Virus record (IMG/VR): IMGVR_UViG_3300028558_000791
Coordinates: 62,001 to 126,000 of that record
From: a virus
Reading direction: 5' to 3' (one strand)
Length of the DNA: 64,000 nt
Every line of letters begins with the position of its first letter. The stretch's first letter is position 1. The notes under the pieces were generated by a model. The model searched no databases. It was not told the DNA's origin and saw nothing but the letters and a program-made list of their open reading frames with translations. Made by a program: the position numbers and the translations under genes. Below are positions 10,855 to 60,049 of the stretch, piece after piece.

Positions 10855-10930
10855 CGTGGTGTAGCAAATCGGCATATGCGACTGTTTCATACGCAGTATT
10901 AAGTGGGTTCGACTCCCACCTCCACGACCA
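10855..10930 (+). tRNA. tRNA with anticodon CAT (Met or Ile2)
   Basis: Acceptor CGTGGTG/CTCCACG with one T-T mismatch, anticodon stem ACTGT/GCAGT with loop TTCATAC, T arm GTGGG-TTCGACT-CCCAC, discriminator A, encoded CCA. There is no run of three G-C pairs in the anticodon stem and base 72 pairs with C1, so it is not a standard initiator. Elongator Met and lysidine-modified Ile2 cannot be separated here. Confidence 0.85.
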
Positions 10931-10932
10931 AA

Positions 10933-11328
10933 TCAATTCGTAGCAATTCCCGAACCTGGATCTCTACCAGTGAATGATAAGGTGGTTGTTCCTTGTGGAA
11001 CCTGAGGGAAGCTACTGATATGTTTCTCAAGATACTTCTTAATTTGTGCTGGTAACTTAGCGTAATTACCTGCAAATTGTGGAGGTTCAACTGATGGTGC
11101 TGACACGTCAACGTTCAAACCACCCAAGGTAGCCTCAGTAATGGTGACGTTGATATTTAAGTCAGCCTGATCTTTCTTGAGTTGAGATGGAAAATTCATG
11201 ATTCCATTAGCGCTGCTCTCGCCATAGCTGGCGGCATTCTGAATGATTTCTTGAAGATTCTGCGATTGAGCATACTTATTTTGAAATTTGTTTGCTAGTT
11301 TTAGAAGTAGGGCCTGAGACTTTTTCAT
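10933..11328 (-). CDS. Minus-strand hypothetical protein, possible late protein
   Basis: A 131-residue protein with an amphipathic N-terminal helix (LLLKLANKFQNKYAQ) followed by a Pro/Val/Thr-rich, beta-type C-terminal half. I do not recognise a family. Its start faces tRNA-Val, and its stop nearly touches tRNA-Met. Its strand and N-terminal style match the genes at 9389 and 60230, so I infer that these are expressed together, perhaps late as virion parts. Confidence 0.7.
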   Translation of the reverse strand: MKKSQALLLKLANKFQNKYAQSQNLQEIIQNAASYGESSANGIMNFPSQLKKDQADLNINVTITEATLGGLNVDVSAPSVEPPQFAGNYAKLPAQIKKYLEKHISSFPQVPQGTTTLSFTGRDPGSGIATN

Positions 11329-11347
11329 ACAAGATATATGGCTTTAG

Positions 11348-11356
11348 TGGTATATA
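11348..11356 (+). promoter_or_regulatory. Extended -10 TGGTATATA before tRNA-Val
   Basis: TGGTATATA in the gap between the minus-strand gene and tRNA-Val(TAC), 13 bases before the tRNA. The same sequence read on the other strand (CTTATATACC) could serve the minus-strand gene. Confidence 0.45.
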
Positions 11357-11369
11357 AGATACCGAAAAT

Positions 11370-11444
11370 GGTCGATTAACTCAGCGGTAGAGTGATGCCC
11401 TTACAAGGCGTAAGTCGGGGGTTCGAATCCCTCATCGACTACCA
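11370..11444 (+). tRNA. tRNA-Val (anticodon TAC), first copy
   Basis: Acceptor GGTCGAT/ATCGACT with a G1-T72 wobble, anticodon stem ATGCC/GGCGT with loop CTTACAA, T loop TTCGAAT, discriminator A and CCA. Confidence 0.92.
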
Positions 11445-11459
11445 GATATGCGGGTTTTA

Positions 11460-11491
11460 CCAAGGGCATAGCGTCCCGAGGCATCTCTTGG
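11460..11491 (+). other. Hairpin between tRNA-Val genes
   Basis: CCAAGG and TCTTGG form a 6-bp stem around a 20-base, GC-containing loop in the 73-base spacer between two tRNA-Val genes. No coding frame is present. It could guide tRNA processing; it is weak as a structure. Confidence 0.25.
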
Positions 11492-11517
11492 AAGGTGACT
11501 TAGTGTATTCCAAACAT

Positions 11518-11592
11518 TGGAGATTAGCTCAATGGTAGAGCGTCGGTTTTACACTCCGAAGACTTAGGGTTCGATCCCCTTATCTCCAACCA
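11518..11592 (+). tRNA. tRNA-Val (anticodon TAC), second copy
   Basis: Acceptor TGGAGAT/ATCTCCA, anticodon stem TCGGT/TCCGA (with a T-T at the loop-closing pair) and loop TTTACAC, discriminator A, encoded CCA. It is clearly different in sequence from the first tRNA-Val. Confidence 0.88.
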
Positions 11593-11660
11593 TGTGTCCC
11601 TAACATATAGGGGATGACACCTATCACAGTGGTGTGGAATGCTGGGGAGTACAGCACCAT

Positions 11661-11734
11661 GGGCGGTTAACTCAATGGTAGAGTGCTAGCATGACTCGCT
11701 AGCTACAGGGGTTCGATTCCCTTACCGCCTACCA
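11661..11734 (+). tRNA. tRNA-Val (anticodon GAC)
   Basis: Acceptor GGGCGGT/ACCGCCT with G1-T72 wobble, anticodon stem CTAGC/GCTAG with loop ATGACTC, so anticodon GAC with an unusual pyrimidine (T) at position 37. Encoded CCA. The preceding 68-base spacer contains no frame, only short inverted repeats. Confidence 0.85.
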
Positions 11735-11735
11735 G

Positions 11736-11984
11736 ATGCGTAAGCTAAGCATATTTGATGATGGTGCGTTTGTCGCATCGGTCACTATGAACGGTACCAC
11801 GCCTTTGATCTTTGCTCGCACGAGTAGGTCTTGGAGTGAAACCAACATGCTAGTTCGTGACAGGTACACTCGTACTGTTAACGGCAAGTACATAGAAGTC
11901 AAAATGGATGATGCCGATTTCCTCCAGCATGTAGCTGAGCGAGCGCAGGGTTACAATTTCAGCACGGAGTTGATCAATGAGTAG
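11736..11984 (+). CDS. Hypothetical protein directly after tRNA-Val
   Basis: An 82-residue, beta-rich protein (MRKLSIFDDGAFVASV at the N-terminus) of unknown function. The ATG is one base after the CCA of tRNA-Val(GAC), so no ribosome site can exist outside the tRNA. Translation would need a leaderless message after tRNA 3' processing, or initiation on the unprocessed transcript. It overlaps the next gene by eight bases. Confidence 0.65.
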   Translation: MRKLSIFDDGAFVASVTMNGTTPLIFARTSRSWSETNMLVRDRYTRTVNGKYIEVKMDDADFLQHVAERAQGYNFSTELINE

Positions 11985-12195
11985 CGTTGAAAATTATGAC
12001 GGTCTCTGTGGTATAATTCCTGAGTTCGCTGACTCTAGTAACCAAATACGTTGTAATTATGAATTGGGACATTATGGTCCCTGTTCATTTAAGAAACTAA
12101 GAAATCATCGTAGAGGTTATGCTGGTTGTTTCAGAGCGCCAGACCCAGACCGTGGTTTCATTGATTCTGTTCTGTCGCATCAAGAAGACGAATAA
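11977..12195 (+). CDS. Hypothetical protein, 72 aa
   Basis: A 72-residue protein with four cysteines (CGIIPEF, RCNYELGHYGPC, GCFRAPD) and His residues, compatible with a small metal-binding or disulfide fold. CGGAG upstream supports the start. No family recognised. Confidence 0.6.
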   Translation: MSSVENYDGLCGIIPEFADSSNQIRCNYELGHYGPCSFKKLRNHRRGYAGCFRAPDPDRGFIDSVLSHQEDE

Positions 12196-12207
12196 TTGAG
12201 GAAAGAA

Positions 12208-12408
12208 ATGAAGAAGTTAATTGGCTTTGTATTAGCATTGGTAATTGGTATTATAGTTATCGCCCCTGTTCACGAAGCAGAGGCCCAGGTTGTTTACACT
12301 CGCAAATGTTGCGATGGTAATAATAACGTCCGTTGTGTCTTAGAAAATTGGACTCCGGTGGGCAACTCTTGCTTTTGTTATGGCCAAGGCTGGGGATACG
12401 CCTGCTAA
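12208..12408 (+). CDS. Small secreted Cys-rich protein
   Basis: A 66-residue protein with a clear signal peptide: MKK, a hydrophobic core of about 16 residues, and a cleavage-like HEAEA-Q. The mature part is about 38 residues with six cysteines, including an adjacent CC pair and a CFC. The ATG at 12208 follows GAGGAAAG. I infer export to the periplasm, where the cysteines could form disulfides. Function unknown. Confidence 0.7.
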   Translation: MKKLIGFVLALVIGIIVIAPVHEAEAQVVYTRKCCDGNNNVRCVLENWTPVGNSCFCYGQGWGYAC

Positions 12409-12425
12409 TTTTCTACGGAGAATAA

Positions 12426-12716
12426 ATGATTGATGAGAATAAATTCTGGGACTTGGTTCGCCAGTGGGAATACGATACAAGAAATACTTCCTCTGCTAAC
12501 CAAATCCTTGGCCATACATCTGTGGCCGGCATAATTCAGATGGGTCAAGAGATAATTCCACTCGCATTGAAAGCGATGAAAGAAAACTATCATTTCACTT
12601 TCATATTGCATAAGTTAACTGGAGAGTGGCCAGTCAAAGATGAACATAAAGGTAATGGTCCAAGGATCATTGAAGCTTGGCGGAAGTGGGCCAAGAAACA
12701 TGGATACCAAGTCTAA
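12426..12716 (+). CDS. Conserved hypothetical protein, 96 aa
   Basis: A 96-residue helical protein. The pattern (an early W-D segment, SSANQILGH, IIQMGQEIIPLALKAM, LTGEWP, then AWRKWAKKHGY at the end) matches a small family of unknown function that I recall from many bacteria and phages. CGGAG lies upstream of the ATG. It is followed by a bidirectional terminator that isolates it from the minus-strand Kelch gene. Confidence 0.7.
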   Translation: MIDENKFWDLVRQWEYDTRNTSSANQILGHTSVAGIIQMGQEIIPLALKAMKENYHFTFILHKLTGEWPVKDEHKGNGPRIIEAWRKWAKKHGYQV

Positions 12717-12731
12717 GCTTGCTAAAAAGAA

Positions 12732-12758
12732 AAACGCCAGGTATTTAGCCTGGCGTTT
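12732..12758. terminator. Bidirectional terminator
   Basis: AAACGCCAGG-tatttag-CCTGGCGTTT, a perfect 10-bp stem with A- and T-runs on both sides. It lies between a + gene and a convergent minus-strand gene and should stop both transcripts. Confidence 0.88.
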
Positions 12759-12783
12759 CCATTTGATTCACTAAAAATTTAGA

Positions 12784-13689
12784 TTAGAGTTTTGTCCAAG
12801 TAGTACCGTTCCAAGACCAAGTGTGGTCGGAAGCGTAGTTGTCAACAGCGCTAATACCGCCGAACATAATTACGTTACCACTCTGGGAGTCCCAGCACAT
12901 CTGAGCGCCCTTACGGCCTGCTGGAGAGGTAGCTGGTGTAGCCTTAGTCCAAGTAGTTCCGTCATAGAGCCAAGTTTCTGGTAGGTTGTTGTATTCATTG
13001 ACACCACCGAATAGAACCCATTGTGCACGAGTTACGTCGTAAGCCATGCAAGCACCAGTTCTAACTGATGGGGAAGTTGCTGGAGCCTGGAGAGTCCAGG
13101 TAGTTCCGTCGAACTTCCAGGTATCATTCTTGCATTCACCGCTGCTGATGCTACCACCAAACAATACTGTGAAGGTTGGGCCGGCTGCCATTACGTGACC
13201 GACTCTGGCTGATGGGGAAGTTGCTGGAGCTAGTTGAGTCCAAGTCTGAACATAACCGTCCCACTTCCAAGTCTCATTTAGGTAGCCTTGGCCACCGTAA
13301 CCACCAAACATGGTGACATTGAGTGCAGTAGTAGTTGTACGACATGCTTCCGCGCCATAACGTCCAAATGGAGATGTAGTTGGAGATTTCTGGGTCCAAG
13401 TAGAACCGCTCCAAATCCAAGTATCCTTTAGGGCGCCTTGTAGGGCTGAGTCAGCTTGACCACCATAAACCATAACGCCATAACCATCATAGGCCATAAC
13501 TTGGTTAGTACGTCCTGGTAGTGGGCCAGCAGTTACTACTTGGGTCCAATCTGTGCCGTTCCAGGTCCAAGTTCCATTTTGGAAATTAGAAACACCTGGA
13601 TAGGCGCCAGAATCCAATAGAACTACTTCGCTAGAACCACGTTGGATCATGAAAGAATTTACGCAACGAAGTGGGGTGTGAGTTGTCAT
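12784..13689 (-). CDS. Kelch-repeat beta-propeller protein
   Basis: A 301-residue protein made of about six repeats of roughly 50 residues. Each has a W-x-W-N/D-G-T-x-W-T-Q/K strand, an Ala-Thr-Ser-Pro turn and an MAYD...VLFGG strand, a Kelch-type beta-propeller. AGAGGATAAA precedes the ATG on the minus strand. Propellers of this type in phages are often tail or fibre parts that bind surfaces, but an intracellular role is possible. A second, unrelated-looking Kelch protein is at 36306. Confidence 0.8.
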   Translation of the reverse strand: MTTHTPLRCVNSFMIQRGSSEVVLLDSGAYPGVSNFQNGTWTWNGTDWTQVVTAGPLPGRTNQVMAYDGYGVMVYGGQADSALQGALKDTWIWSGSTWTQKSPTTSPFGRYGAEACRTTTTALNVTMFGGYGGQGYLNETWKWDGYVQTWTQLAPATSPSARVGHVMAAGPTFTVLFGGSISSGECKNDTWKFDGTTWTLQAPATSPSVRTGACMAYDVTRAQWVLFGGVNEYNNLPETWLYDGTTWTKATPATSPAGRKGAQMCWDSQSGNVIMFGGISAVDNYASDHTWSWNGTTWTKL

Positions 13690-13772
13690 TTTATCCTCTT
13701 TAAGTGAATCAAAACTTTAAAAGCTTATTTGTATGGCTTAAAAGTGATAGAATAATTATAAGGAATTTTTCG

Positions 13773-14045
13773 ATGCATTATCATATTTTCTGGGGTTTAA
13801 GGACAACAGAGGAGCCCTTTATCCTAAATTTTTCGGACAGGGATACGGCCATTGACAAGTTCATTGCGCTAGTTAAAGATGTAGAAGGTGATAGCGTCAA
13901 GGACGGTCCACCACCCTGGGACGAGCAAAAGATTGGCAATACTCTAGTCTTTAGAATTGTTAGCCCTTTGTACAAGTATCTACTTGTATACTGTAATAAT
14001 TCTTGTGATACTGAAGATGCTCCTTTTCCAATGAATGTTAATTGA
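13773..14045 (+). CDS. Hypothetical protein, 90 aa
   Basis: A 90-residue protein starting MHYHIFWGLR. The start at 13773 is chosen for the AAGGA upstream; the upstream region (13740-13765) also holds AT-rich -10-like sequence. Divergent from the Kelch gene. No domain recognised. Confidence 0.6.
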   Translation: MHYHIFWGLRTTEEPFILNFSDRDTAIDKFIALVKDVEGDSVKDGPPPWDEQKIGNTLVFRIVSPLYKYLLVYCNNSCDTEDAPFPMNVN

Positions 14046-14059
14046 TTTTGGGCATAAGG

Positions 14060-14068
14060 TGATATAAT
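14060..14068 (+). promoter_or_regulatory. Extended -10 TGATATAAT before tRNA-Gly
   Basis: TGATATAAT preceded by CATAAGG, 11 bases before tRNA-Gly(TCC). A TTGATT lies upstream at 14042, but the spacing of 15 is short. Confidence 0.6.
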
Positions 14069-14079
14069 TATTACCGTAA

Positions 14080-14154
14080 GCGAATGTAACTCAATGGTAG
14101 AGTCTCTGCCTTCCAAGCAGATGGTTGAGGGTTCGAGCCCCTTCGTTCGCTCCA
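14080..14154 (+). tRNA. tRNA-Gly (anticodon TCC), first copy
   Basis: Acceptor GCGAATG/CGTTCGC, anticodon stem TCTGC/GCAGA with loop CTTCCAA, T loop TTCGAGC, discriminator T, encoded CCA. Confidence 0.94.
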
Positions 14155-14184
14155 AGCTCTGGTGCCTATAGAAACCTATTCGCC

Positions 14185-14231
14185 CCTAATTCGAGTCCAA
14201 AGGGCTGTGACATGGCCAGCCACGAATTAGG
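14185..14231 (+). ncRNA. Structured non-coding element in tRNA-Gly spacer
   Basis: CCTAATTCG (14185-14193) pairs perfectly over nine bases with CGAATTAGG (14223-14231). Inside, GGCTG (14203-14207) pairs with CAGCC (14217-14221). The result is a long stem, an asymmetric internal loop and an apical stem-loop in the 122-base spacer between two tRNA-Gly genes. There is no coding frame and no tRNA arm pattern. It may be a small RNA or a processing signal. Confidence 0.45.
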
Positions 14232-14276
14232 ATAAGCAGTAAAGTCAATCTGTAGGAAATAAACACCACGCTATAA

Positions 14277-14351
14277 GCAGACTTAATTCAGTGGTAGAAT
14301 GATTCGTTGCCAACGAATATGTCACGGGTTCGAGCCCCGTAGTCTGCTCCA
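14277..14351 (+). tRNA. tRNA-Gly (anticodon GCC), first copy
   Basis: Acceptor GCAGACT/AGTCTGC, anticodon stem ATTCG/CGAAT with loop TTGCCAA, T loop TTCGAGC, discriminator T, encoded CCA. Confidence 0.94.
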
Positions 14352-14359
14352 AGACGAAT

Positions 14360-14430
14360 GCCAGGTAGGATTACATGGATAAAGCGTCAGGAGTAATCCT
14401 GATTCGAGATGGTTCAAACCCATCAAACTT
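14360..14430 (+). pseudogene. Degenerate tRNA-like remnant
   Basis: The stretch has a D-arm-like ACATGGATAAAGCG, an anticodon-like stem CAGG/CCTG with a six-base loop, and a perfect T arm GATGG-TTCAAAC-CCATC. It has no matching acceptor stem and no CCA. It looks like a decayed tRNA gene in the glycine tRNA array; a small RNA mimic is an alternative. Confidence 0.35.
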
Positions 14431-14477
14431 TCCCGTAAGGGATCGTAAAAAATCTTTCCAAATTTAGTCGTCTATTT

Positions 14478-14551
14478 GCGGTTATCTTCTAATGGTAAGA
14501 ATACTGGTCGCCATCCAGAGAACGCCGGTTCGATTCCGGCTAACCGCTCCA
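14478..14551 (+). tRNA. tRNA-Gly (anticodon GCC), with C at position 33
   Basis: Acceptor GCGGTTA/TAACCGC, T arm GCCGG-TTCGATT-CCGGC, discriminator T, CCA. The anticodon arm is CTGG-TCGCCAT-CCAG, giving GCC. The normally invariant T33 is C. Confidence 0.85.
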
Positions 14552-14587
14552 CGATTCCCAATCTTTCATTTGAAAGCGTGACTTTAT

Positions 14588-14740
14588 ATGCGTTCACATC
14601 ATTATCTCTTTCTCTTTCTTCTCGTGGTAGTTGTAGGCTTCCTAACTCTTAGAGGATGTGTTCACTGTACCGGCAGAGTTCTCTCTGGCCCAACTCCTAC
14701 AAATACTATCTATGTTGTTCCAGGAGGACCAGCTAGGTAA
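14588..14740 (+). CDS. Possible small membrane protein, 50 aa
   Basis: A 50-codon frame in the gap between two tRNA-Gly genes. The N-terminus has a strong hydrophobic stretch (LFLFLLVVVVGFL) followed by LRGC and a short polar, Pro/Gly-rich tail, so a signal anchor or lipoprotein is possible. No clear ribosome site. It is the only frame in this 209-base gap. Confidence 0.45.
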   Translation: MRSHHYLFLFLLVVVVGFLTLRGCVHCTGRVLSGPTPTNTIYVVPGGPAR

Positions 14741-14760
14741 GTACAAAGCAGTTAAAATTA

Positions 14761-14844
14761 GCGGGCATCGCATAGCGGCGATTGCACTTGCCTTCCAAGC
14801 AAGACTCTGAAACAACGTGGGTTCGAGTCCCACTGCCCGCTCCA
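14761..14844 (+). tRNA. tRNA-Gly (anticodon TCC) with enlarged variable loop
   Basis: Acceptor GCGGGCA/TGCCCGC, anticodon stem CTTGC/GCAAG with loop CTTCCAA, T arm GTGGG-TTCGAGT-CCCAC, CCA. The body resembles bacterial GlyT, but 13 bases instead of four or five separate the anticodon and T stems. Confidence 0.85.
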
Positions 14845-14848
14845 GATT

Positions 14849-15151
14849 ATGATTGACGCATGTAAGTTCTGCGAGCATAAGATTCCTGTACCTGACCTTG
14901 GTGATGACTGGTGGTGTCCCAAGTGCCAGAAGTATTCTGTTGTCTGTATGGATAACAGTATTGTGGAGTCAGAGACATTGCGCTCTGGTAATTTCTATAT
15001 TATATTCTTTCCAGCTTATAAGACTGCCAGCATTGCTTCCACCAAAGAGGCAGAGAAACAAATTCTAAAGTCTTTTGAAATGGATGAGTTTACCCACGAG
15101 CAAGCACTCTATTGGGCGAACAAACTAAAAACATACGTACTGTTTCAGTGA
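14849..15151 (+). CDS. Zinc-ribbon protein directly after tRNA-Gly
   Basis: A 100-residue protein. CKFC and CPKC near residues 5-26 form a zinc ribbon; the remainder is alpha/beta. The ATG lies four bases after the tRNA-Gly CCA, without room for a ribosome site. It ends LKTYVLFQ. Function unknown. Confidence 0.65.
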   Translation: MIDACKFCEHKIPVPDLGDDWWCPKCQKYSVVCMDNSIVESETLRSGNFYIIFFPAYKTASIASTKEAEKQILKSFEMDEFTHEQALYWANKLKTYVLFQ

Positions 15152-15221
15152 GTCCATAGAAAAGTTATATGACGTAGATCGGGAAAAAGAACGCTACCAT
15201 TTTGTAAAAATGCGGAACGCC

Positions 15222-15249
15222 TTGACTCGCATTCTATACGATTTACATT
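15222..15249 (+). promoter_or_regulatory. Promoter of the EF-Ts operon
   Basis: TTGACT (15222-15227), 16-base spacer, TACATT (15244-15249). It belongs to the TTGACW-N16-TAnRTT set. It lies 20 bases ahead of the chosen EF-Ts ATG, with AAGGA between, which argues against the longer upstream reading frame. Confidence 0.65.
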
Positions 15250-15269
15250 TGAACACAAGGATAAGTAAC

Positions 15270-16229
15270 ATGAGTAACACGGAGCTAATCAGAGAGCTAA
15301 GGGCATTAACTTCAGCCGGCATGAAGGATTGCAAGGATGCTCTCGAAGAGTCTAGTTGGGATTTGCAAAAGGCCGTTGACATTGTCAAGGCTAAGGGCCT
15401 CAATGTTGTCTCCGGTCGTTCAGGCAAAGTTGCTTCTGAAGGTGCCGTTACCGTTTGGCATTTTGCCGAAGGGGTAGCGATGGCCGAAGTCAATTGCCAA
15501 ACTGACTTCGTTGCTAACAGCCCCGACTTCAGGGGATTTGCACAGAATGTAGCTCACGATGTTGCCGACGCAGTTAGCAATGGTGAAGCATTTACTGTTG
15601 ATATGGTTGAGCAAGAGAGACAAGCTATTGTCTCTACAACGAAAGAAAATGTTGTAGTTCGCCGATGGTGGGTTGAGCAACCAGTTGCCCCAGGAACCGC
15701 AACGTATTCTTACGTTCACTCTAATGGCAAGATTGGCGTTCTAATTACTTTGCTTGCCCCATCTGCTGATGCGGCTAAGGATTCCGCTTTCCGTGAGCTT
15801 GGTGAAGACCTTGCCATGCAGATTGCTGCCATGAGTCCGTTGGCAGTCGATGCGGATCGTATTCCACAAGAAGAAAAAGTTCGTCAGAAGGCAATCTTTG
15901 AGATGCAACTCAAGGATGAGAACAAGCCAGAGAAGATGTGGGATAAGATTATGGAAGGTAAGTTCCGTAAGTGGAACACAGAAGTTTGTTTGCTGGAGCA
16001 GGAGTCAGTGGTTGTTCCTAAGACGACTGTAAGGCAAGTAGTGAAGAATGTCGGGACCAAGTTGGGCGGTGAGATTCAAGTTGTGAATTTCGTTCGTTGT
16101 CAAGTTGGTGAGGGCATTGAAAAGAAACAAGACAACCTCGCCGAGGAAGTCGCTAAACTGACGGGACAAGAAAATGGTCAGATGGATACTACAGTATTAC
16201 AAACCATGTCCGCAGTCAGAAATAAGTAA
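15270..16229 (+). CDS. tsf: Elongation factor Ts
   Basis: A 319-residue EF-Ts, the nucleotide exchange factor that turns EF-Tu-GDP into EF-Tu-GTP. The N-terminal UBA-like domain carries the conserved TSAGMKDCKDALEES (residues 13-27), followed by the core with CQTDFVA (Tus-binding TDFV motif, about residues 76-82), a dimer-like second subdomain and a C-terminal module. It is a little longer than typical bacterial EF-Ts. No EF-Tu is visible here, so it should act on host EF-Tu. Host EF-Ts is also a known subunit of some RNA phage replicases; here a translational role with the phage EF-G is the simplest inference. Confidence 0.95.
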   Translation: MSNTELIRELRALTSAGMKDCKDALEESSWDLQKAVDIVKAKGLNVVSGRSGKVASEGAVTVWHFAEGVAMAEVNCQTDFVANSPDFRGFAQNVAHDVADAVSNGEAFTVDMVEQERQAIVSTTKENVVVRRWWVEQPVAPGTATYSYVHSNGKIGVLITLLAPSADAAKDSAFRELGEDLAMQIAAMSPLAVDADRIPQEEKVRQKAIFEMQLKDENKPEKMWDKIMEGKFRKWNTEVCLLEQESVVVPKTTVRQVVKNVGTKLGGEIQVVNFVRCQVGEGIEKKQDNLAEEVAKLTGQENGQMDTTVLQTMSAVRNK

Positions 16230-16237
16230 GGTACAAG

Positions 16238-16528
16238 ATGACAAGTGATGTAGGACAATTGATTGACAAGCTAACGAATGCAGTATCCTTCAAGTTTAAG
16301 GATGATGCTACCTCTCCTAACGTAACCATTTCCAAGTTGCGCAAAGGTTACTACTGTTCTGTCGTTCGATACTCTAAGAGTGGCGCTGCACAAAAGAAGG
16401 TCGTAGTCTGTAAGGCTACTGCTGATTCTATGGAAGATGCAGTCAAAACAGTTGTTACTGAGTTTCTCAAGGTAGCTCAGCCTCAACTTGATCCTCTTCA
16501 AGAATTGAACAACCTAGCCAATCAATAA
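16238..16528 (+). CDS. Hypothetical protein, 96 aa
   Basis: A 96-residue protein downstream of EF-Ts, nine bases after its stop. Mixed alpha/beta with Lys-rich, possibly RNA-binding strands (KLRKGYYCSVVRYSKSG). No family recognised. Part of the 15270-18183 operon. Confidence 0.65.
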   Translation: MTSDVGQLIDKLTNAVSFKFKDDATSPNVTISKLRKGYYCSVVRYSKSGAAQKKVVVCKATADSMEDAVKTVVTEFLKVAQPQLDPLQELNNLANQ

Positions 16529-16537
16529 GGGGGAATC

Positions 16538-16900
16538 ATGGATCGTAAGACCTTACTAAAAGAAATGAAGGAGACAATTGGAACGAGAGAACCAATTGTC
16601 TTTTTCGAAAAGATGGTTGATATGTTCAGTCTTCTTTTCGATCGTATCGAGAAACTAGAAAAAGATTTAGGCGAGACTCGCATGAATGCAGCTTTGGCTA
16701 TCCAGTGGGAACCGAAAGTTGCTCGCGCAATGATTACCGATGAAATCAGTATTCTTCGAGAAAATAAAGACACTTACGTTGAGGAAATCTCAAAGCTTAA
16801 GAAGGCTTTTATCGAGGATAAGGTTACGCAGAACTATAATGAATTCTGCCTCTTCTGGGAAGAGACGCTAGGATTCCATCCATTTTTGAGTTACGAATGA
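16538..16900 (+). CDS. Hypothetical coiled-coil protein, 120 aa
   Basis: A 120-residue helical protein; residues 25-90 are rich in Glu, Lys and Leu in heptad-like order. AAGGGGGAATC precedes the ATG. Overlaps the next gene by four bases (ATGA). Confidence 0.65.
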   Translation: MDRKTLLKEMKETIGTREPIVFFEKMVDMFSLLFDRIEKLEKDLGETRMNAALAIQWEPKVARAMITDEISILRENKDTYVEEISKLKKAFIEDKVTQNYNEFCLFWEETLGFHPFLSYE

Positions 16901-17163
16901 ACGCCAAAGAGATTTTTGACAAGCTTGTTGCAAGGGCTGGTGGCTTCTGGGCTAGCAGCTCTTTGCGCCGTAAACCAGTTGGCAAGCCCGGAGAACTAGT
17001 TGAAAGGCTGGCTCCCGAAGAACGAGAAGAGCTTCAAAACCTTACATCCAAAGATGTACAAGATGCAGACCGTAGTGTGCTATTGTACATGACAGGTATG
17101 TATCCTGAGTCTACCGTGACTGTTCACACTCATACTGTAAAGAAAGATGACGATGAATCTTGA
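16897..17163 (+). CDS. Hypothetical protein, 88 aa
   Basis: An 88-residue protein with a basic N-terminal third and an acidic C-terminus (KKDDDES). Linked by ATGA overlap to the preceding gene. Not recognised. Confidence 0.6.
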   Translation: MNAKEIFDKLVARAGGFWASSSLRRKPVGKPGELVERLAPEEREELQNLTSKDVQDADRSVLLYMTGMYPESTVTVHTHTVKKDDDES

Positions 17164-17425
17164 TGAATCAAAAAAGAAAGAAACTGTTAGGATTTCTAAA
17201 AAGGATCTCCTGAAGCTTCTTTCTGATAATGAGCATATGTCCAAACAAGTTACCGAACTTCAAACTCGAATGACTGAACTTGTAGAAGAGAATCGCAGAC
17301 TTAAACTGGAAGCTATTACTGGTCGACCTCCGGTGGCAGTTCTACCAGAATCAGATCCAATGCCATTCATTAGACCTGACATTTATTTTGATGGATCCAA
17401 TGGTTTAGATCGATACGGAAAATGA
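17147..17425 (+). CDS. Hypothetical coiled-coil protein, 92 aa
   Basis: A 92-residue protein whose residues 18-60 form a likely coiled coil (heptad Leu/Val, many Glu and Lys), with a Pro-rich C-terminal tail. The ATG at 17147 or at 17153 could be used; both sit in the end of the preceding gene. It overlaps pyrF by four bases. Confidence 0.6.
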   Translation: MTMNLDESKKKETVRISKKDLLKLLSDNEHMSKQVTELQTRMTELVEENRRLKLEAITGRPPVAVLPESDPMPFIRPDIYFDGSNGLDRYGK

Positions 17426-18183
17426 AACCTGATAACCCCATTATCGTTGCTCTTGATTTTTCTGATTTGCAAGAGGCGCGAAAGGTAGTGGAGCGCGTTC
17501 GTCCCCACATTGGAATGATTAAGATTGGATTAGAGCTGTTCACGGCTTATGGTCGTGAGGCTCTGGAGATGTCATCTGACTATCAGATTCCAGTCTTTCT
17601 AGACCTTAAACTGAATGATGTGCCAACCACGGTAAGTAAAACTACTTCCGTGGTTTGTGCTTTATTGGCTAAGCATCCTGGACCTCATATCCTAAGTGTC
17701 CACTGCAATGGTGGGCCAGAGATGGTTCGAGATGCTATGAAGACAGTAATGGGATCTAATGTTACCATTGCTGGAGTTACCGTACTGACGTCTCTAGACA
17801 CTCCATATTTTCGACGTATGGGATTTGGAAACAGTCAGCCAGGTACTCGTACAGTAGTTACTGCTGGTGTTGGGTATGATTGTATGAATGAGCGCCCAGT
17901 ATATGATACCAAAGGAGATAGGGTGTATGATGGACTGAAACAGTTCATCTGTGCTCCTAATCAAATTCCATTGATGAAGAAACATTTCGCAGATTCAATT
18001 CTGATTACTCCGGGTATCCGAGCTGACGGCGATGATACCAATGACCATGCTAGAACTAAGCCGGTAGGGTATGCCCTTAAGAACGGGGCGACTTGGGTTG
18101 TAGTTGGCAGGCCGATTACCAAAGCCACAGATCCACGTGATGCGGCTGTATGGTTCGAGCAACAAGCTAAAAAATACGCTTGA
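17422..18183 (+). CDS. pyrF: Orotidine 5'-phosphate decarboxylase
   Basis: A 253-residue OMP decarboxylase, the last step of UMP synthesis (OMP to UMP plus CO2). The TIM-barrel motifs are clear: IVALDFSD at the N-terminus, MIKIGLELFT, the catalytic DLKLNDVP (Asp-Lys-x-x-Asp, with Asn where His is common), LSVHCNGG, LTPGIR-like ILITPGIRADGDD and VVVGRPITKA near the end (phosphate-binding loop). A phage pyrF would raise pyrimidine supply for replication. It ends the EF-Ts operon. The catalytic set looks intact. Confidence 0.95.
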   Translation: MKPDNPIIVALDFSDLQEARKVVERVRPHIGMIKIGLELFTAYGREALEMSSDYQIPVFLDLKLNDVPTTVSKTTSVVCALLAKHPGPHILSVHCNGGPEMVRDAMKTVMGSNVTIAGVTVLTSLDTPYFRRMGFGNSQPGTRTVVTAGVGYDCMNERPVYDTKGDRVYDGLKQFICAPNQIPLMKKHFADSILITPGIRADGDDTNDHARTKPVGYALKNGATWVVVGRPITKATDPRDAAVWFEQQAKKYA

Positions 18184-18215
18184 AAAAGATTGCAATAAGG
18201 CGCTGCATAGCGGGG

Positions 18216-18221
18216 TATATG
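18216..18221 (+). promoter_or_regulatory. -10-like TATATG before tRNA-Arg
   Basis: TATATG 14 bases ahead of tRNA-Arg(CCG), with CAATAAGGCG further upstream at 18193-18202, as seen before tRNA-Leu(TAG). Weaker than the other members of the set. Confidence 0.35.
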
Positions 18222-18235
18222 TTAGGTGAAGCCAT

Positions 18236-18309
18236 TCAGGGCTCGTCTAACGGCAGGATCGAGGACTCCGAATCCTCTGATATTGGTTCGAATCCAATGC
18301 CCTGAACCA
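18236..18309 (+). tRNA. tRNA-Arg (anticodon CCG)
   Basis: Acceptor TCAGGGC/GCCCTGA, anticodon stem GAGGA/TCCTC with loop CTCCGAA, T loop TTCGAAT, discriminator A, encoded CCA. Confidence 0.94.
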
Positions 18310-27310: not shown

Positions 27311-27322
27311 TAGGCATAACGA

Positions 27323-27349
27323 TATATATGTTTATGAACCCAGTGAGGG
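27323..27349 (+). promoter_or_regulatory. Promoter and leader motif of the NAD cluster, site 1
   Basis: ACGATATATATG holds a TATATA -10-like element, then CCCAGTGAGGG at 27339-27349. The second motif, a short CCC/GGG inverted repeat, is repeated ahead of the NAMPT gene (28399-28409), and both leaders then run through AATTA, an ATAC and CGGAGAGT to the ATG. Confidence 0.5.
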
Positions 27350-27382
27350 TTCTTGACAATTAGATACACGGAGAGTGTTATT

Positions 27383-28390
27383 ATGGAACAATATCAGTAT
27401 TGCGTCGTTGTTGGGCGTTTCGAGCCATTTCATCTTGCACATCATGAGCTTATTCGAGAAGCTCTGAGTTTGGCAAAGACTGCATTAGTCATTATTGGGA
27501 GCGCCCACAAGGCCCGCACCATTCAAAATCCTTGGACCGCTGTTGAGCGAGAAGCAATGATTGTTGCCGCCCTCACAGAAGAGGAAAGGGCACGAGTCAA
27601 ATTCTTCCATGTTCGCGACTACTTCTACACCAACAACCGTTGGTTGAGTGAAGTTCAGCAGCTTATTGCTGAGGCAACTGATGGAATTGAAGATGACCAG
27701 ATTTGCAACATTGGTGAGCCTGTAAACGACTTCTACTTCCCTCAGTGGAAGTATTTCAAGATGCGCAACCTAGATAGGATGCCGCATGCAACGAAGGTTC
27801 GTGATTTGTATTTCACTCACGATGCTGCATATAAGACCCATCTGGACGCTCCAGTTGCGGAAATCTTAGAAAACTTCAAAACGACTCTTGCCTTCAAGAC
27901 TTTGAAGGATGAGTATGATCATATCCGAAACTACCGCTCTTCCTGGGATGGTGCTCCCTTTCCTCCAACTTTTGTTACGATTGACTGCATTGTTATCAAG
28001 AGTGGTCACGTATTGACGGTCCGTCGAAAAGGTAGTCCTGGTCGAGGTTTGATTGCTCTTCCTGGCGGATTCTTGAACCAAAAGGAAACAATCCTTGAAG
28101 GAGCCCTTCGAGAGTTAAAGGAAGAGACTGGTATCAAGGTTTCCAAAGAGGAGCTTGAGAAGTCTATTATTGAGCAGAAAGTGTTCGACTACCCAGAGCG
28201 CTCTCTACGAGGCCGCACAATTACACATGCCTTCCTAATCAATCTAGGTCAAGGCCCACTTCCTGTCGTCAAAGGAATGGATGATGCCGACAAGGCATGG
28301 TGGATGTCACTAAGTGATTTGGCAACTAGGGAATCGGAATTCTTCGAAGACCACTTCCACATCATCACACACTTCATCAACAAATTCTAA
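27383..28390 (+). CDS. nadM: NMN adenylyltransferase-Nudix bifunctional protein
   Basis: A 335-residue two-domain protein. Residues 1-175 form a NadM-type nucleotidyltransferase (VVGRFEPFHLAHHELI, the HxxH-like nucleotide site, and SAHKARTIQNPW), which joins NMN and ATP to give NAD+. The C-terminal domain (about 195-335) carries a full Nudix box, GGFLNQKETILEGALREL-KEETG, which in related bifunctional proteins hydrolyses ADP-ribose. The ATG at 27383 is chosen for the CGGAGAG site. Followed by NAMPT and NAD synthetase, it forms an NAD+ synthesis cluster. The ADP-ribose hydrolase activity would fit the ADP-ribosylation genes elsewhere in the window. Confidence 0.93.
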   Translation: MEQYQYCVVVGRFEPFHLAHHELIREALSLAKTALVIIGSAHKARTIQNPWTAVEREAMIVAALTEEERARVKFFHVRDYFYTNNRWLSEVQQLIAEATDGIEDDQICNIGEPVNDFYFPQWKYFKMRNLDRMPHATKVRDLYFTHDAAYKTHLDAPVAEILENFKTTLAFKTLKDEYDHIRNYRSSWDGAPFPPTFVTIDCIVIKSGHVLTVRRKGSPGRGLIALPGGFLNQKETILEGALRELKEETGIKVSKEELEKSIIEQKVFDYPERSLRGRTITHAFLINLGQGPLPVVKGMDDADKAWWMSLSDLATRESEFFEDHFHIITHFINKF

Positions 28391-28398
28391 GAAAAGTT

Positions 28399-28409
28399 CC
28401 CAGTGAGGG
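28399..28409 (+). promoter_or_regulatory. Leader motif of the NAD cluster, site 2
   Basis: CCCAGTGAGGG, identical to 27339-27349, in the 47-base gap between nadM and the NAMPT gene, followed by the same AATTA-ATAC-CGGAGAGT series. A shared regulatory RNA or operator is likely. Confidence 0.5.
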
Positions 28410-28437
28410 GATTTCAAATTAATACGGAGAGTATATC

Positions 28438-29841
28438 ATGAATTACGAAGCAGAGAATTTTCTCATCGATACGGATAGTTACAAGGCCAGCCATTACCTT
28501 CAATATCCTGAAGGAACAACGAGTATGTTTAGCTACATCGAATCTCGTGGTGGTGATTACAAGAAGACGGTGTTCTTCGGCCTACAATACTACGTCAAGA
28601 AGTACCTTACTCACAGAGTGACTGTGGAAGAGGTTGAAGAGGCCAAGGAGTTCTTCGAAGCACACGGAGAGCCATTCAACTACGAAGGTTGGATGTATAT
28701 CGCTAAGGAACTTGGTGGTAAGTTGCCGGTTCGTATTCGAGCCGTTCCCGAGGGTAGCGTTGTTCCTACTCACAATATCTTAGTCAGTATCGAATCTACT
28801 GATCCCAAAGTCTTTTGGGTGGTATCCTGGATCGAAACAATGCTACTTAGGGTCTGGTATCCTATCAACGTTGCAACCAGGAGTCACAAAATTAGACAGA
28901 TCATCTCAGAAGCCTTGAGAATCTCGGCAGATGATCCGCAGGCAGAAATCAATTTCAAGCTGCACGATTTCGGAAGCAGAGGCGTTTCGTCTCAGGAATC
29001 GGCAATGATTGGTGGAGCCGCTCATTTGGTTAACTTCATGGGTTCCGATACTGTCGTTGGTGTGCGATGCGCCAACAAATTCTACAACTCTAAGATGGCT
29101 GGTTTCAGTATCCCTGCCATGGAGCACAGCTCAGTTACCTCTTGGGGCAGAGAGCACGAAGCTGATGCCTACCGCAACATGCTTCAGAAGACTGGAAAAC
29201 CGGGCGGATTAGTTGCTTGTGTAAGCGACTCTTACGATCTGTGGAATGCCTGTTCTAACCTGTGGGGCAAAGAACTGAAGGATGAAGTGATCAAGTCGGG
29301 AGCTACTGTAGTTATCCGTCCTGACTCTGGAGATCCTTCCAGTGTTGTCCTCCGCACTGCACAATTGCTTGAAGAAAAGTTTGGAGTTACTGTCAATAGC
29401 AAAGGCTTCAAGGTTCTCAACAATGTACGCATTATCCAGGGAGACGGTATCAATGAAGACTCAATTCAAGAGATCCTTAACAATTTGCTGGATCATACTT
29501 ACAGCGCCAGCAATATTGCTTTTGGTATGGGCGGCGCTCTGCTACAGCAACATAATCGCGATACACTGAAGTTCGCCATGAAGTGTAGCCACATCTATCG
29601 TACGGTAGATGGTAAGGAAGTTTCAGTGGATGTCTTCAAGGATCCTGTTACTGACCACGGTAAAGTTAGTAAGGCTGGCCGTTTGGATTTGATTCGTGAC
29701 ATGTCTGGCAATTGGTCCACTGTCACTCTTGGAGACAAAGATCATCACCTGTTGACGGTGATGGATCTTGTCTATGAGAATGGTGAGGTTCTCAAGGAAT
29801 ATACGTTTGACGAAATTAGAAACCGTGCGAAGGGAGTGTAA
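28438..29841 (+). CDS. nadV: Nicotinamide phosphoribosyltransferase
   Basis: A 467-residue NAMPT/NadV, which makes NMN from nicotinamide and PRPP, the first step of nicotinamide salvage. Family signatures are clear: DSYKASHYLQYPEGT at the start, the HDFGSRGVSSQESA loop, GSDTVVG, SMEHS-like AMEHSSVTSWG, RPDSGDP (phosphate-binding) and FGMGGALLQ. Length is close to animal and bacterial homologues. It starts 47 bases after nadM with a CGGAGAG site. With NadM it rebuilds NAD+ from the nicotinamide released by NAD-cleaving enzymes. Confidence 0.96.
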   Translation: MNYEAENFLIDTDSYKASHYLQYPEGTTSMFSYIESRGGDYKKTVFFGLQYYVKKYLTHRVTVEEVEEAKEFFEAHGEPFNYEGWMYIAKELGGKLPVRIRAVPEGSVVPTHNILVSIESTDPKVFWVVSWIETMLLRVWYPINVATRSHKIRQIISEALRISADDPQAEINFKLHDFGSRGVSSQESAMIGGAAHLVNFMGSDTVVGVRCANKFYNSKMAGFSIPAMEHSSVTSWGREHEADAYRNMLQKTGKPGGLVACVSDSYDLWNACSNLWGKELKDEVIKSGATVVIRPDSGDPSSVVLRTAQLLEEKFGVTVNSKGFKVLNNVRIIQGDGINEDSIQEILNNLLDHTYSASNIAFGMGGALLQQHNRDTLKFAMKCSHIYRTVDGKEVSVDVFKDPVTDHGKVSKAGRLDLIRDMSGNWSTVTLGDKDHHLLTVMDLVYENGEVLKEYTFDEIRNRAKGV

Positions 29842-29842
29842 C

Positions 29843-30742
29843 ATGATTAAAGACTATCTAAAAACTGCAATTCATATCGAAACTTGGATCAAAAATTACG
29901 CTGCCAAAGCAGGTGTTTCTACATTAGTTCTGGGCCTTTCTGGCGGAATTGACTCTGCTGTCTGTGCCTTACTCATCAAACGAACTGGAATTCCTTTGGT
30001 GTGTGTTAACATGCCATGTCATAGTTCCTCTTCTGCTTATGACCGTGCTAAGGCATTTGCTGATGAGAATGACATTAAGCTGATGAAGGTTGATTTGTCA
30101 GCGGCCCATGCAGTCATTGCTGATCAACTAACTGTCCAGGCACCATTTGATTGGCAAAGCAAAGGTTCTGCTGGCGGACTTCGTTCTTGCCTCAGAGCAC
30201 CAACTCTATCCTATGTTGCTCATGCCACCAACGGAATCATCGTTGGTACTGGCAATCGTAGTGAAGACCGTATCACCCGTTACTTTCAGAAGTTTGGTGA
30301 TGGTTGCGTAGACTTCTCACCAATTGCTGACTTGTGGAAGTCGGAAGTGTATGCCCTGTTCAAGTTCCTTGCTGAGGAAAACAATGGTGTCATGGGTCCT
30401 GGTGCACAGGCTATCTATGATGCTAAGCCAAGTGCTGACCTTTGGGGAGCTGATTCTGGTCAAGAAGATGAGAAAGAGCTTGGCATCTCCTATGATGAGA
30501 TTGAGTGGGCTGATCGTGAAGATGTTGACTCACAAGGTGAAGGTGCTTGGGGTCAGCCTATGCCAGGAATTATCTTCCTAGATTCTCACCCCGAGGAACA
30601 TGAACGTTGGGGCTCCTATACTCCACGTCAGCAAGAAGTCATTAAGACCCTTCATCGTATGGAGAAGACCTCTCGTCATAAGGCTAATCCAGCTATGCCA
30701 GTCTGTAATGTGCATGACCCTAAACTTGAACTTTGCGAGTAA
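29843..30742 (+). CDS. nadE: NAD synthetase
   Basis: A 299-residue ammonia-dependent NAD synthetase, which amidates nicotinate adenine dinucleotide (NaAD) to NAD+. The P-loop LGLSGGIDSAV (residues 32-42) of the N-type ATP pyrophosphatase family, GTGNRSED and FSPIADLWKSEVYAL are clear. There is no glutaminase domain. The ATG at 29843 follows one base after the NAMPT stop, with AAGGGAG inside the previous gene. The substrate comes from the nicotinic acid route, so the phage covers both the amidated (NAMPT-NadM) and the deamidated path. Confidence 0.95.
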   Translation: MIKDYLKTAIHIETWIKNYAAKAGVSTLVLGLSGGIDSAVCALLIKRTGIPLVCVNMPCHSSSSAYDRAKAFADENDIKLMKVDLSAAHAVIADQLTVQAPFDWQSKGSAGGLRSCLRAPTLSYVAHATNGIIVGTGNRSEDRITRYFQKFGDGCVDFSPIADLWKSEVYALFKFLAEENNGVMGPGAQAIYDAKPSADLWGADSGQEDEKELGISYDEIEWADREDVDSQGEGAWGQPMPGIIFLDSHPEEHERWGSYTPRQQEVIKTLHRMEKTSRHKANPAMPVCNVHDPKLELCE

Positions 30743-31425: not shown

Positions 31426-31677
31426 ATGAAAGTCCTCCAATATAGTATTGATCCTAAAGTGTGGACCCATGCAATCACTTGTGATTGGTGTAAGTCTCAA
31501 ATTGAAATCAGTGCCGATGATTTGTCTCACGAAGGTGAGAGAGGCGATTATGTGGATCCGGGCTGGGACCGTTATACATGTGATTGTGGCGCTTGTGGTC
31601 ATGAGATAGAAGTTCCTGAGAAGCAGCTTCCTAACATCATTCAATCCTACGCAAGGAAACGAAAAAAGAAACGATGA
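31426..31677 (+). CDS. Zinc-ribbon protein, paralogue 2
   Basis: An 83-residue paralogue of the protein at 30746: MKVL start, CDWC, GDYVDPG, a CDCGACG second knuckle and LPNIIQ. The C-terminus is basic (KRKKKR), suggesting nucleic-acid contact. Overlaps the next gene by four bases. Confidence 0.7.
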   Translation: MKVLQYSIDPKVWTHAITCDWCKSQIEISADDLSHEGERGDYVDPGWDRYTCDCGACGHEIEVPEKQLPNIIQSYARKRKKKR

Positions 31678-32240
31678 TCTATGCTGTAAGTTTCAAGCAT
31701 ACCATCCCCGAAGGTTCTTTATCTATGGACGTTACCTCCAGGTCTAATACCTGGGGAAGGCACTTCAGTCCATTCAATCTAGGGCCAGTGGACCTGTATG
31801 ATGGATATGTGGCCAAGAACATTGAGAATGCTTTTCAGTTCTCTAGGGTTTATCCCGAGTACTCTACTGTGGACGGTGTACCGTCGGAACACTATTGGGA
31901 GTGGGCAAAGATTGGTTGGGCCGAATCTAAGCCTATCAAATATCCTATGGGTGTTTGGAATAAGCATTTGTATCATTGGTGGGATGGTAAGAAGCTAGGA
32001 ATGTTAGAAGCTCAGAATCAAATATTCTTACCATTGTATAAGAAGGCCGTCATCAAAACCCCAGCCTTTGAGAAGCTAAAGTATTTTTACGAAAACTCAA
32101 AGCAAGACATTTACCTGATCGATTTCGAAGGTTATAATCATCGATACCTGGAAAAAACCTGGGATCAGGTGATCAGCGATCCTGATAGACCTGTAGGCCA
32201 AGCTTTTGCTCTTTGTATGATATTAGAGGGATTTCTATGA
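31674..32240 (+). CDS. Conserved phage protein, possible NADAR-like fold
   Basis: A 188-residue protein. NTWGRHFSPFNLGPVDLYDG, NIENAFQFSRVYPEY and a final GQAFALCMILEGFL resemble a conserved family of unknown function that I recall from phages and bacteria. The order of blocks (N-terminal SPF/LGP, an En-x-xQ-x-SK/R-like helix, then a G-x-AF-x-L helix) is reminiscent of NADAR proteins, but I cannot confirm homology. It is coupled to neighbours on both sides by ATGA and lies about 570 bases ahead of the second DraG gene. Confidence 0.55.
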   Translation: MIYAVSFKHTIPEGSLSMDVTSRSNTWGRHFSPFNLGPVDLYDGYVAKNIENAFQFSRVYPEYSTVDGVPSEHYWEWAKIGWAESKPIKYPMGVWNKHLYHWWDGKKLGMLEAQNQIFLPLYKKAVIKTPAFEKLKYFYENSKQDIYLIDFEGYNHRYLEKTWDQVISDPDRPVGQAFALCMILEGFL

Positions 32241-32540: not shown

Positions 32541-32813
32541 ATGATAAGTATTGACGAAGAGATTCAAAGAATAATTCACTTCTTGAGCCAAGGAATCGAT
32601 TATACGCTCACTATAGGGATTCTTAGTATTACCCCGATCTGTTCAGATGAGGCTTGCTGGGTGGTGAGTTGGCAAGAACAGATTGATGATACTATTCTAG
32701 AATGCCAGAAGGATTTTATATCCTTGTTCGATGCTGCACAGTATTTTGTCGAGAAAAGACGCTATATGTGCATTGGATCTGATTTTGATACATTGGAGAA
32801 TGATAATGAGTAG
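32541..32813 (+). CDS. Hypothetical protein, 90 aa
   Basis: A 90-residue acidic protein, one base after the previous stop. No motif. It overlaps the second ADP-ribosylglycohydrolase gene by eight bases. Confidence 0.65.
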   Translation: MISIDEEIQRIIHFLSQGIDYTLTIGILSITPICSDEACWVVSWQEQIDDTILECQKDFISLFDAAQYFVEKRRYMCIGSDFDTLENDNE

Positions 32814-33723
32814 CGTATTACTTGGTACTGCAATTGGTGATGCCTTGGGTGTTCCATTTGAAACTAAACTTGCTAACTATGAGTTGTTGGTTGCTTGGGA
32901 TGGTGAAACCTATTTAGGTAGCGAGCATCACGGCCTCAAACCTGGACAATACTCTGATGATACTCAGATGAGTCTGATGGTTGCCGAATCTCTTATCGAG
33001 AACCATGGATTCAATCCCGATGACTTAGCCGAACGCTATGTTGAATGGATTACATCTGGCAGGGCTAGAGGTTATGGTAAAACAACCCTATTAGCCATTC
33101 AAAATTTGGTCAATGGTAAACACTGGAGCGAATCTGGTATTGCTGGTTCCTATGGAAATGGAACCGCTATGCGAGCTGCTCCATTTGGAGTTTACTTCCG
33201 CAATGATTTACAGTCCCTAATCAGTATTTGTAAGATGGATAGTTCTATCACCCACGCTTCTGATGAGGCTGAAGCCGGTTCTATTGCTATTGGGTATGCA
33301 GCAGCCTATGCGGTCAATGGCGAGAAGGAAGGGTTACTAGATGAATTGTGGCGAATTCTGCCGGACAGCAAGGTAAAAAGTATCATTTACAGCCTTGACT
33401 CCTTGATTGATTCGCCTTACATTACACCGGAACAAGCGCTCCGTGTGATTGGAACTAAGGCAGATGTTCGACAGACTGCTCCAGCCGCATTGTATTGTTT
33501 CCTAAAGTTTGAGACCTATGCAGAGGCAATACAAGCCGCCATTAGAGCTGGTGGAGATACAGATACCACGGCTGCCATTGTAGGAGCTTTGTTTGCTGCC
33601 AGAGATGGTACGTTGAATATCTCTGATGCTTGGATTAGTGGTGTAGAGGAATCTAGTAGGCTCATGGAGCTAGATAGTCAACTTTACAACCGATCAAACG
33701 ATTCGTTTCTGAAAAGAGGATAA
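32806..33723 (+). CDS. ADP-ribosylglycohydrolase (DraG family), copy 2
   Basis: A 305-residue paralogue of the protein at 756. Shared hallmarks are GTAIGDALGVPFE at the N-terminus, GQYSDDTQMSL (first metal cluster), SGNGTAMR-like YGNGTAMRAAPFG in the middle and GGDTDTTAAIVGAL near residue 250 (second metal cluster). The start at 32806 is inside the end of the previous gene. Two divergent DraG copies in one window suggest different substrates or partners, for example protein-Arg versus other ADP-ribose links. Confidence 0.9.
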   Translation: MSSVLLGTAIGDALGVPFETKLANYELLVAWDGETYLGSEHHGLKPGQYSDDTQMSLMVAESLIENHGFNPDDLAERYVEWITSGRARGYGKTTLLAIQNLVNGKHWSESGIAGSYGNGTAMRAAPFGVYFRNDLQSLISICKMDSSITHASDEAEAGSIAIGYAAAYAVNGEKEGLLDELWRILPDSKVKSIIYSLDSLIDSPYITPEQALRVIGTKADVRQTAPAALYCFLKFETYAEAIQAAIRAGGDTDTTAAIVGALFAARDGTLNISDAWISGVEESSRLMELDSQLYNRSNDSFLKRG

Positions 33724-59221: not shown

Positions 59222-59251
59222 GCATTTTCAATTCAACCTTTCAAGTAAGTC

Positions 59252-59713: not shown

Positions 59714-59731
59714 AATCTAGCAATAAGGCGA

Positions 59732-59737: not shown

Positions 59738-59746
59738 AAACACAAC

Positions 59747-59830: not shown

Positions 59831-59831
59831 A

Positions 59832-60047: not shown

Positions 60048-60049
60048 AT

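Follow-up and report, generated by a model that had tools for sequence, protein, structure and literature searches.

Bacterial immunity against phages commonly ends in depletion of nicotinamide adenine dinucleotide (NAD+), which phages are known to be able to rebuild. We analyzed a window of 64,000 nucleotides, bases 62001–126000 of the 480,838-bp IMG/VR virus record IMGVR_UViG_3300028558_000791, the source virus of which is a jumbo phage. In this window nadM-Nudix and NAMPT (nadV) are each preceded by a copy of one two-hairpin leader. The enzymes constitute a NARP2-type nicotinamide salvage pathway and are ordinary as a gene cluster; the discovery is the leader. As in NARP2 (the name used in PMC12028318), NAMPT and a nicotinamide mononucleotide (NMN) adenylyltransferase lie side by side in a phage genome with their active-site motifs intact, in agreement with the initial annotation, which had been made from the letters of the DNA. 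The locus departs from NARP2 in its NadM-Nudix fusion as the adenylyltransferase, its additional nadE, the subsequent DUF6939-like and ADP-ribosylglycohydrolase genes, and the RNA element ahead of both core genes. Phage neighbourhoods of NadV, NadM-Nudix and ADP-ribose-processing genes have already been described (PMC9503650); the part of that survey available to us names NadV, NadM and NadR as enzymes of synthesis and mentions no leader RNA, and nadE does not appear as a term in the main text.

Among RNAs that control NAD+ genes, the literature searched, which comprised neither the original NARP paper nor a 2017 list of 224 candidate RNAs, describes the NAD+-I (nadA) and NAD+-II (pnuC) riboswitches only, and two motif surveys mention no nadV or nadM leaders. 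The guanidine-II riboswitch (mini-ykkC) consists of two small hairpins with like loops, ACGR tetraloops, just before the start codon; the likeness is one of architecture only; the loops here are RNNGA and GGAGN pentaloops and the genes are different. The NAD+-I riboswitch has, in the accounts available to us, two similar tandem stem-loop domains with the ribosome-binding site in the second (PMC7708056), but its stem-loops are bulged and carry a ACANCCCC bulge (PMC7297122), whereas the element described here is made of plain pentaloop hairpins. For the NAD+-II riboswitch, which binds NAD+, NMN and nicotinamide riboside, translational control through covering of the Shine-Dalgarno (SD) sequence has been proposed as well (PMC7749635, PMC8632094); it is pseudoknotted, linked to pnuC and found in Streptococcus, whereas only two simple hairpins are predicted here. 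The leaders match none of the 4227 models of Rfam 15, at gathering or at relaxed thresholds, the NAD+-I model included, and show neither the ACANCCCC bulge nor the three-helix pseudoknot fold of NAD+-II.

Two hairpins ahead of nadM and NAMPT

The initial annotation had pointed to an identical CCCAGTGAGGG, with similar following bases, before the first two ATGs of the cluster. The copies are exact (window positions 27339–27349 and 28399–28409, one before nadM and one before NAMPT) and are the only two in the whole record, both strands searched, for which base composition predicts 0.13; read backwards, the pattern has 0 copies in the record. Each leader copy consists of two hairpins: hairpin 1 (HP1), with a stem of 5–9 bp and the pentaloop RNNGA, then hairpin 2 (HP2), with a stem of about 4 bp and the pentaloop GGAGA, which is the SD sequence itself, 3–4 nt ahead of the ATG. 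The similar following bases turn out to be HP2. The features of the region are:

27312..27327, + strand: AGGCATAACGATATAT, promoter-like stretch upstream of the nadM leader, conserved in close relatives
27336..27352, + strand: HP1 of the nadM leader, GAACCC-AGTGA-GGGTTC, with compensatory changes across phages; folds alone as drawn
27366..27378, + strand: HP2 of the nadM leader, ACAC-GGAGA-GTGT, SD in the loop, from alignment and covariation
27383..28390, + strand: nadM-Nudix, bifunctional NMN adenylyltransferase / Nudix hydrolase (PF01467 and PF00293, phrog_395)
28394..28414, + strand: HP1 of the NAMPT leader, AAGUUCCC-AGUGA-GGGGAUUU, from fold and alignment
28422..28434, + strand: HP2 of the NAMPT leader, ATAC-GGAGA-GTAT, SD in the loop, from alignment, covariation and fold
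28438..29841, + strand: NAMPT (nadV), nicotinamide phosphoribosyltransferase (PF18127, NAMPT_N, and PF04095; phrog_448)
29843..30742, + strand: nadE, single-domain NH3-type NAD(+)/NMN synthetase (PF02540, TIGR00552)

In DNA letters the NAMPT leader reads AAGTTCCC-AGTGA-GGGGATTT, followed by the spacer, HP2 and the ATG; in the nadM leader the outer pairs of HP2 shift slightly when the single sequence is folded. The stretch AGGCATAACGATATAT, which may be a promoter, is present in most of the closer nadM leaders and has one exact match in the window. nadE begins 1 nt past the NAMPT stop codon, lacks such a leader and is probably translated through coupling to NAMPT.

To compare the sequence ahead of each start codon, 28 related viral loci were collected via NAMPT. 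In the relatives the stem of HP1 changes pairwise while the loop stays constant (CTTCTC-AGAGA-GAGAAG, CTTCCC-AGTGA-GGGAAG, GGTTCTC-AGAGA-GAGAACT), and the inner pairs of HP2 are ACAC/GTGT, ATAC/GTAT, TCAC/GTGA or GATA/TATC. Across 32 phage leaders, compensatory changes occur at 7 of 10 pairs, 98.1% of the cells are paired against 73.8% in shuffles, and 75 cells carry double changes against 24; none of 500 shuffles was as good on either measure, and the pairing falls to 28–63% when the partner is slid by one to three columns. For the joint set of phage and bacterial leaders (R2, 36 leaders, aligned by spacer padding) the corresponding values are 96.2% paired against 47.3%, with compensatory changes at 11 of 11 pairs, although these are partly circular as the rows had been picked for having stems. 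The conserved unit is the pair of hairpins, in which the loops stay fixed and the stems are free to vary. The exact 11-mer was rejected as that unit, since it already fails in close relatives, which have an AGAGA loop, and other stems replace it. The lack of conservation that, according to the initial annotation, would have spoken against the leader is therefore not observed: the leader is conserved in related phages, but not in the form in which it was first noticed.

The HP1 loop has A or G at position 1, G at position 4 and A at position 5. In 67 leaders, the loops of which were pre-filtered, a G-C closing pair goes with the loops AUAGA, ACAGA, AAAGA and GUUGA and a C-G closing pair with AGAGA, AGUGA, AGGGA, GGAGA and their relatives, no loop sequence being seen with both. 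This tight linkage of loop and closing pair divides the element into two subtypes: the G-C subtype is typical of proteobacteria, the C-G subtype of these phages, cyanobacterial nadM, Chloroflexota and Acidobacteria.

Association with the two genes in phages and bacteria

A fixed, strict two-hairpin criterion was applied to each start codon close to NAMPT and nadM and, as a control, to all remaining open reading frames (ORFs) of the same loci. The element was found before 15 of 22 NAMPT and 14 of 22 nadM genes in the IMG/VR phage loci, and before 34 of 49 bacterial NAMPT genes with nadM nearby. The bacterial nadM genes gave 7 of 49, or 13 of 49 if HP2 is allowed to overlap the start codon. It was absent from the 39 NAMPT genes without nadM nearby (0/39), from the cultured-phage records (0/17) and from all other ORFs of the same loci (0/1644), the last of which rules out a chance origin of the association. 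Moreover, when no loop filter is applied, 94 of the 148 leaders in which both genes are nearby contain a hairpin of 6 bp or more with a pentaloop, and this loop is RNNGA in 74 of the 94; such a hairpin is also present in 143 of 1180 control leaders, where not one of the 143 loops is RNNGA. The association is thus not created by criteria set post hoc.

A covariance model built from the phage leaders (R1) was run over 31 virus records, some of them fragments. All matches at E < 1e-4 lie ahead of nadM or NAMPT, typically two per record, and in the source record R1 yields exactly two matches, the nadM and NAMPT leaders, as does R2. In a record fetched via nadE alone (G024), R1 pointed to two sites, which are its nadM and NAMPT leaders. 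Weaker matches (about 1e-4 to 1e-3) occur only in loci of the L007/L016 type, before a 108-residue ORF and an HNH endonuclease gene that sit just ahead of nadM; other records have a few matches below that level, which seem to be due to chance. One locus of the L007 type, L217, carries extra HP1-like copies before the 108-residue ORF and the endonuclease gene (2025–2108 and 2477–2508), as if the HNH endonuclease had inserted into the leader. IMG/VR was also scanned with a pattern combining both core motifs, blind to the genes: among the matches listed, those with both stems well formed (at least 3 pairs in the first, at least 4 in the second) all lead to nadM or NAMPT, except one without a downstream ATG (L111). 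The element is kept on each gene separately even in L004, L005 and L025, where the NAMPT leader is several hundred bases away from nadM. Among the cultured phages examined, those of Mesorhizobium, Myxococcus, Caulobacter and Vibrio and the T4-like ones have no element of the R1 or R2 type ahead of either gene. In Cronobacter phage GAP32, the nadM and NAMPT leaders share one HP2 with the SD in its loop, CTAAG-GGAGT-CTTAG (upstream of 1255 and 2974 in L182); this variant, with its different upstream hairpin, is a possible third subtype.

The leader is not confined to phages. A NAMPT profile run over bacterial genomes brought up 80 loci, in the leaders of which this architecture recurs. The same two hairpins precede NAMPT or nadM in Xanthomonadales, Burkholderiales, Acidobacteria, Chloroflexota and Cyanobacteria, as in the leaders of Luteimonas (GCCGGCGG-ATAGA-CCGCCGG, then CGAAGGAGCTTCCG), Burkholderia (CGCCGCG-ACAGA-CGCGGCG, then CTAGA-GGAGC-TCTAG), Variovorax (GGGCTCCG-GTTGA-CGGAGCCC, then GTGAAA-GGAGC-TTTCAC), an Anaerolineae bin (CAATGAC-GGGGA-GTCATTG, then TTCC-GGGGA-GGAA) and an acidobacterial nadM (CCGTTC-AGGAA-GAACGG, then AACAC-GGAGA-GTGTT); the nadM leaders of Burkholderia, Cyanobacteria and Chloroflexota have it as well. 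Over 25 bacterial genomes (about 130 Mb), R2 gave 10 matches at E ≤ 1, all 10 within the NAMPT/nadM loci of that scan. An order-wide search of 151 genomes with R2 under stricter filters returned a single match, which is not informative, as these filters missed even the known copy in the centre genome.

The initial annotation had proposed that the repeated leader controls the two genes together. That it is shared by both genes and conserved in related phages is what joint control would need; what had escaped notice is that the leader is a structured RNA covering the ribosome-binding site, and that it extends to bacteria.

Possible modes of action

Most likely the element is a translational OFF switch on nadM and NAMPT, probably a riboswitch for a metabolite of the NAD pathway and less probably a protein operator. 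Since the SD lies inside a covarying hairpin, control of translation initiation is argued, and HP1 is likely the sensing part because its loop is conserved and it does not cover the SD. That a cis-acting RNA controls the translation of both genes seems to us a little more probable than the contrary, the sensing of a metabolite being the less certain part of this reading. NAMPT makes NMN and NadM converts it to NAD+, and in the proposed mechanism each gene would be under its own copy of one cis-acting 5'-leader element. HP1, with its conserved RNNGA pentaloop, would be the sensor hairpin; in the 'off' state HP2, stabilised via HP1, would block ribosome binding, and upon loss of the signal HP2 would open and both enzymes would be translated. 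The RNA might sense NAD+, NMN or nicotinamide by binding it directly, although this step is less certain, and NAD+ depletion by host defences would then turn the salvage genes on. A riboswitch is favoured by the wide taxonomic spread, by the involvement of two steps of one pathway and by the two NAD+ riboswitch precedents, and the spread over several bacterial phyla makes a widely available signal likelier than a phage-specific protein. One of the features expected of riboswitches, a conserved covarying RNA structure in the 5' leaders of functionally related genes, is found here; direct binding of a ligand that changes expression would be the other.

The strongest competitor is a translational operator, in which a host or phage RNA-binding protein, or an enzyme of the pathway, binds both pentaloops and covers the SD. 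We hold it to be less likely than not, a riboswitch being slightly ahead of it. Such a protein would suit the resemblance between the HP1 and HP2 loops (RNNGA, GGAGN), the small number of conserved nucleotides, the variation of loop types between lineages, and the occurrence of one HP1 loop type in both the nadM and the NAMPT leader of a phage (AUAGA twice in L020, AGGUA twice in L011); the simple tandem stems of the pan motif have likewise been read as possible dimeric protein sites (PMC2864571). NadM itself is a possible binder, which would fit the 0/39 at NAMPT loci without a nearby nadM. An element present in several bacterial phyla and in phages would nevertheless require a very conserved protein. 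An operator for CsrA/RsmA was considered and rejected: GGA is present in HP2 but in only 11 of 67 HP1 loops, whereas it is needed in the loop of each bound hairpin. Hairpins that regulate nothing, which would have travelled with the genes while fixing translation at a low rate or shielding the 5' end of the mRNA, are improbable. An SD within a 4-bp hairpin is plausible as a static attenuator and nadM and NAMPT do travel together between bacteria and phages, but such an attenuator would have no need of HP1. This hairpin keeps its loop despite the drift of the stem and is located at some distance upstream of the SD, and the element persists on each gene separately. Least credible by far is a reading at the DNA level, in which the inverted repeats would be not RNA structures but operator sites bound by a transcription factor such as an NrtR-like repressor. 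Regulation of the NrtR type typically uses inverted repeats upstream of NAD genes, but a DNA operator should keep the sequence of its arms, whereas here the arms vary with compensating changes while the loop is kept, and the SD, directly ahead of the start codon, lies within the second repeat.

Several points weigh against the riboswitch and repression proposal, which derives from sequence and predicted structure. Few unpaired positions are conserved, namely R, G and A in the loop of HP1 and GGAG in that of HP2, a small number for a metabolite aptamer, and the GGAG would in any case be conserved as the SD. The HP1 loop is group-specific, with AGWGA in these phages, AUAGA or ACAGA in proteobacteria and GGGUA or AGGUA in Acidobacteria and L011, as would also be expected from co-evolution with a binding protein. 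The strict form is missing from about one third of the phages that have both genes, the cultured ones examined show at most a variant, and the low count for bacterial nadM given above points the same way. HP2 is weak on its own, and the criteria were set after part of the leaders had been seen.

Whether it is a riboswitch or a protein operator, the switch would hold back both salvage enzymes until a signal arrives, most simply low NAD+, and release by low NAD+ would fit an answer to NAD-depleting immunity. A counter-defence effect of the cluster is plausible in view of the literature. The most far-reaching version, in which a new NAD-pathway riboswitch class of two pentaloop hairpins, widespread before nadV and nadM in bacteria, lets the phage sense immune NAD+ depletion and rebuild NAD+ only then, is offered tentatively, as we would sooner expect it to fail in some part than to hold as a whole. 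In any case, an RNA element conserved across phages and several bacterial phyla and placed on precisely the two salvage enzymes is a concrete candidate regulator; should it bind NAD+ or NMN, it would represent a third, minimal class of NAD riboswitch and a ready-made laboratory NAD+ sensor.

Enzymes of the cluster and neighbouring genes

Profile matches and coordinates confirm that nadM-Nudix, NAMPT and nadE are consecutive. NadM-Nudix, with its HxxH motif and Nudix box intact, scores 398 bits against NCBIfam NF003791, slightly below the cut-off of 409, and its closest solved structure is 2QJO (319 bits). NAMPT, in which the active-site stretches (His, RPDSGD) are conserved, is best matched in the PDB by a bacterial NAMPT, 7YQO. 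NadE has no glutaminase domain. It had been suggested to extend the cluster to the deamidated route through nicotinic acid adenine dinucleotide (NaAD); its identity as NadE stands, but the route is doubtful in view of its best solved relative, 3FIU (106 bits, the next-best structure scoring 82 bits), which we take to be the Francisella NMN synthetase. Francisella has NadM in place of NadD, accompanied by a NadE homologue that is an NMN synthetase (PMC3376133). Judging from this homology, the phage NadE may make NMN from nicotinic acid mononucleotide, thus feeding NadM instead of completing the NaAD route. A phosphoribosyl pyrophosphate synthetase was seen in the phage only as a sub-threshold fragment. 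No phage of the GenBank collection is similar at the DNA level across the region, the matches being short NAMPT stretches only.

Two further genes are co-conserved with the cluster:

31674..32240, + strand: DUF6939-like protein, weak match below the Pfam cut-off
32800..33723, + strand: ADP-ribosylglycohydrolase of the ARH/DraG family (PF03747, 237 bits)

The ADP-ribosylglycohydrolase is close to NAMPT in about 10 related phages. The DUF6939-like gene also lies near NAMPT and ADP-ribosylglycohydrolase in L003, L004, L005, L007, L010, L025 and L026, and is present twice in L004 and L005. The pattern of its conserved residues is reminiscent of NADAR proteins, a NADAR-like fold being a guess; the AlphaFold model is too poor for use (predicted local distance difference test, pLDDT, 51). 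A NADAR-domain gene (PF08719, 118 bits) is found about 22 kb downstream of the NAD cluster, at window positions 53023–53433 (record 115023–115433). In the viral contig L020, a transfer-messenger RNA (tmRNA; 2608–2961, best match permuted tmRNA, 98 bits) stands shortly before nadM. The window alone contains 25 tRNA genes, grouped at 260–1883, 10855–18309 and 59136–61857, with repeated isoacceptors for Ser, Gly, Leu, Arg and Val.

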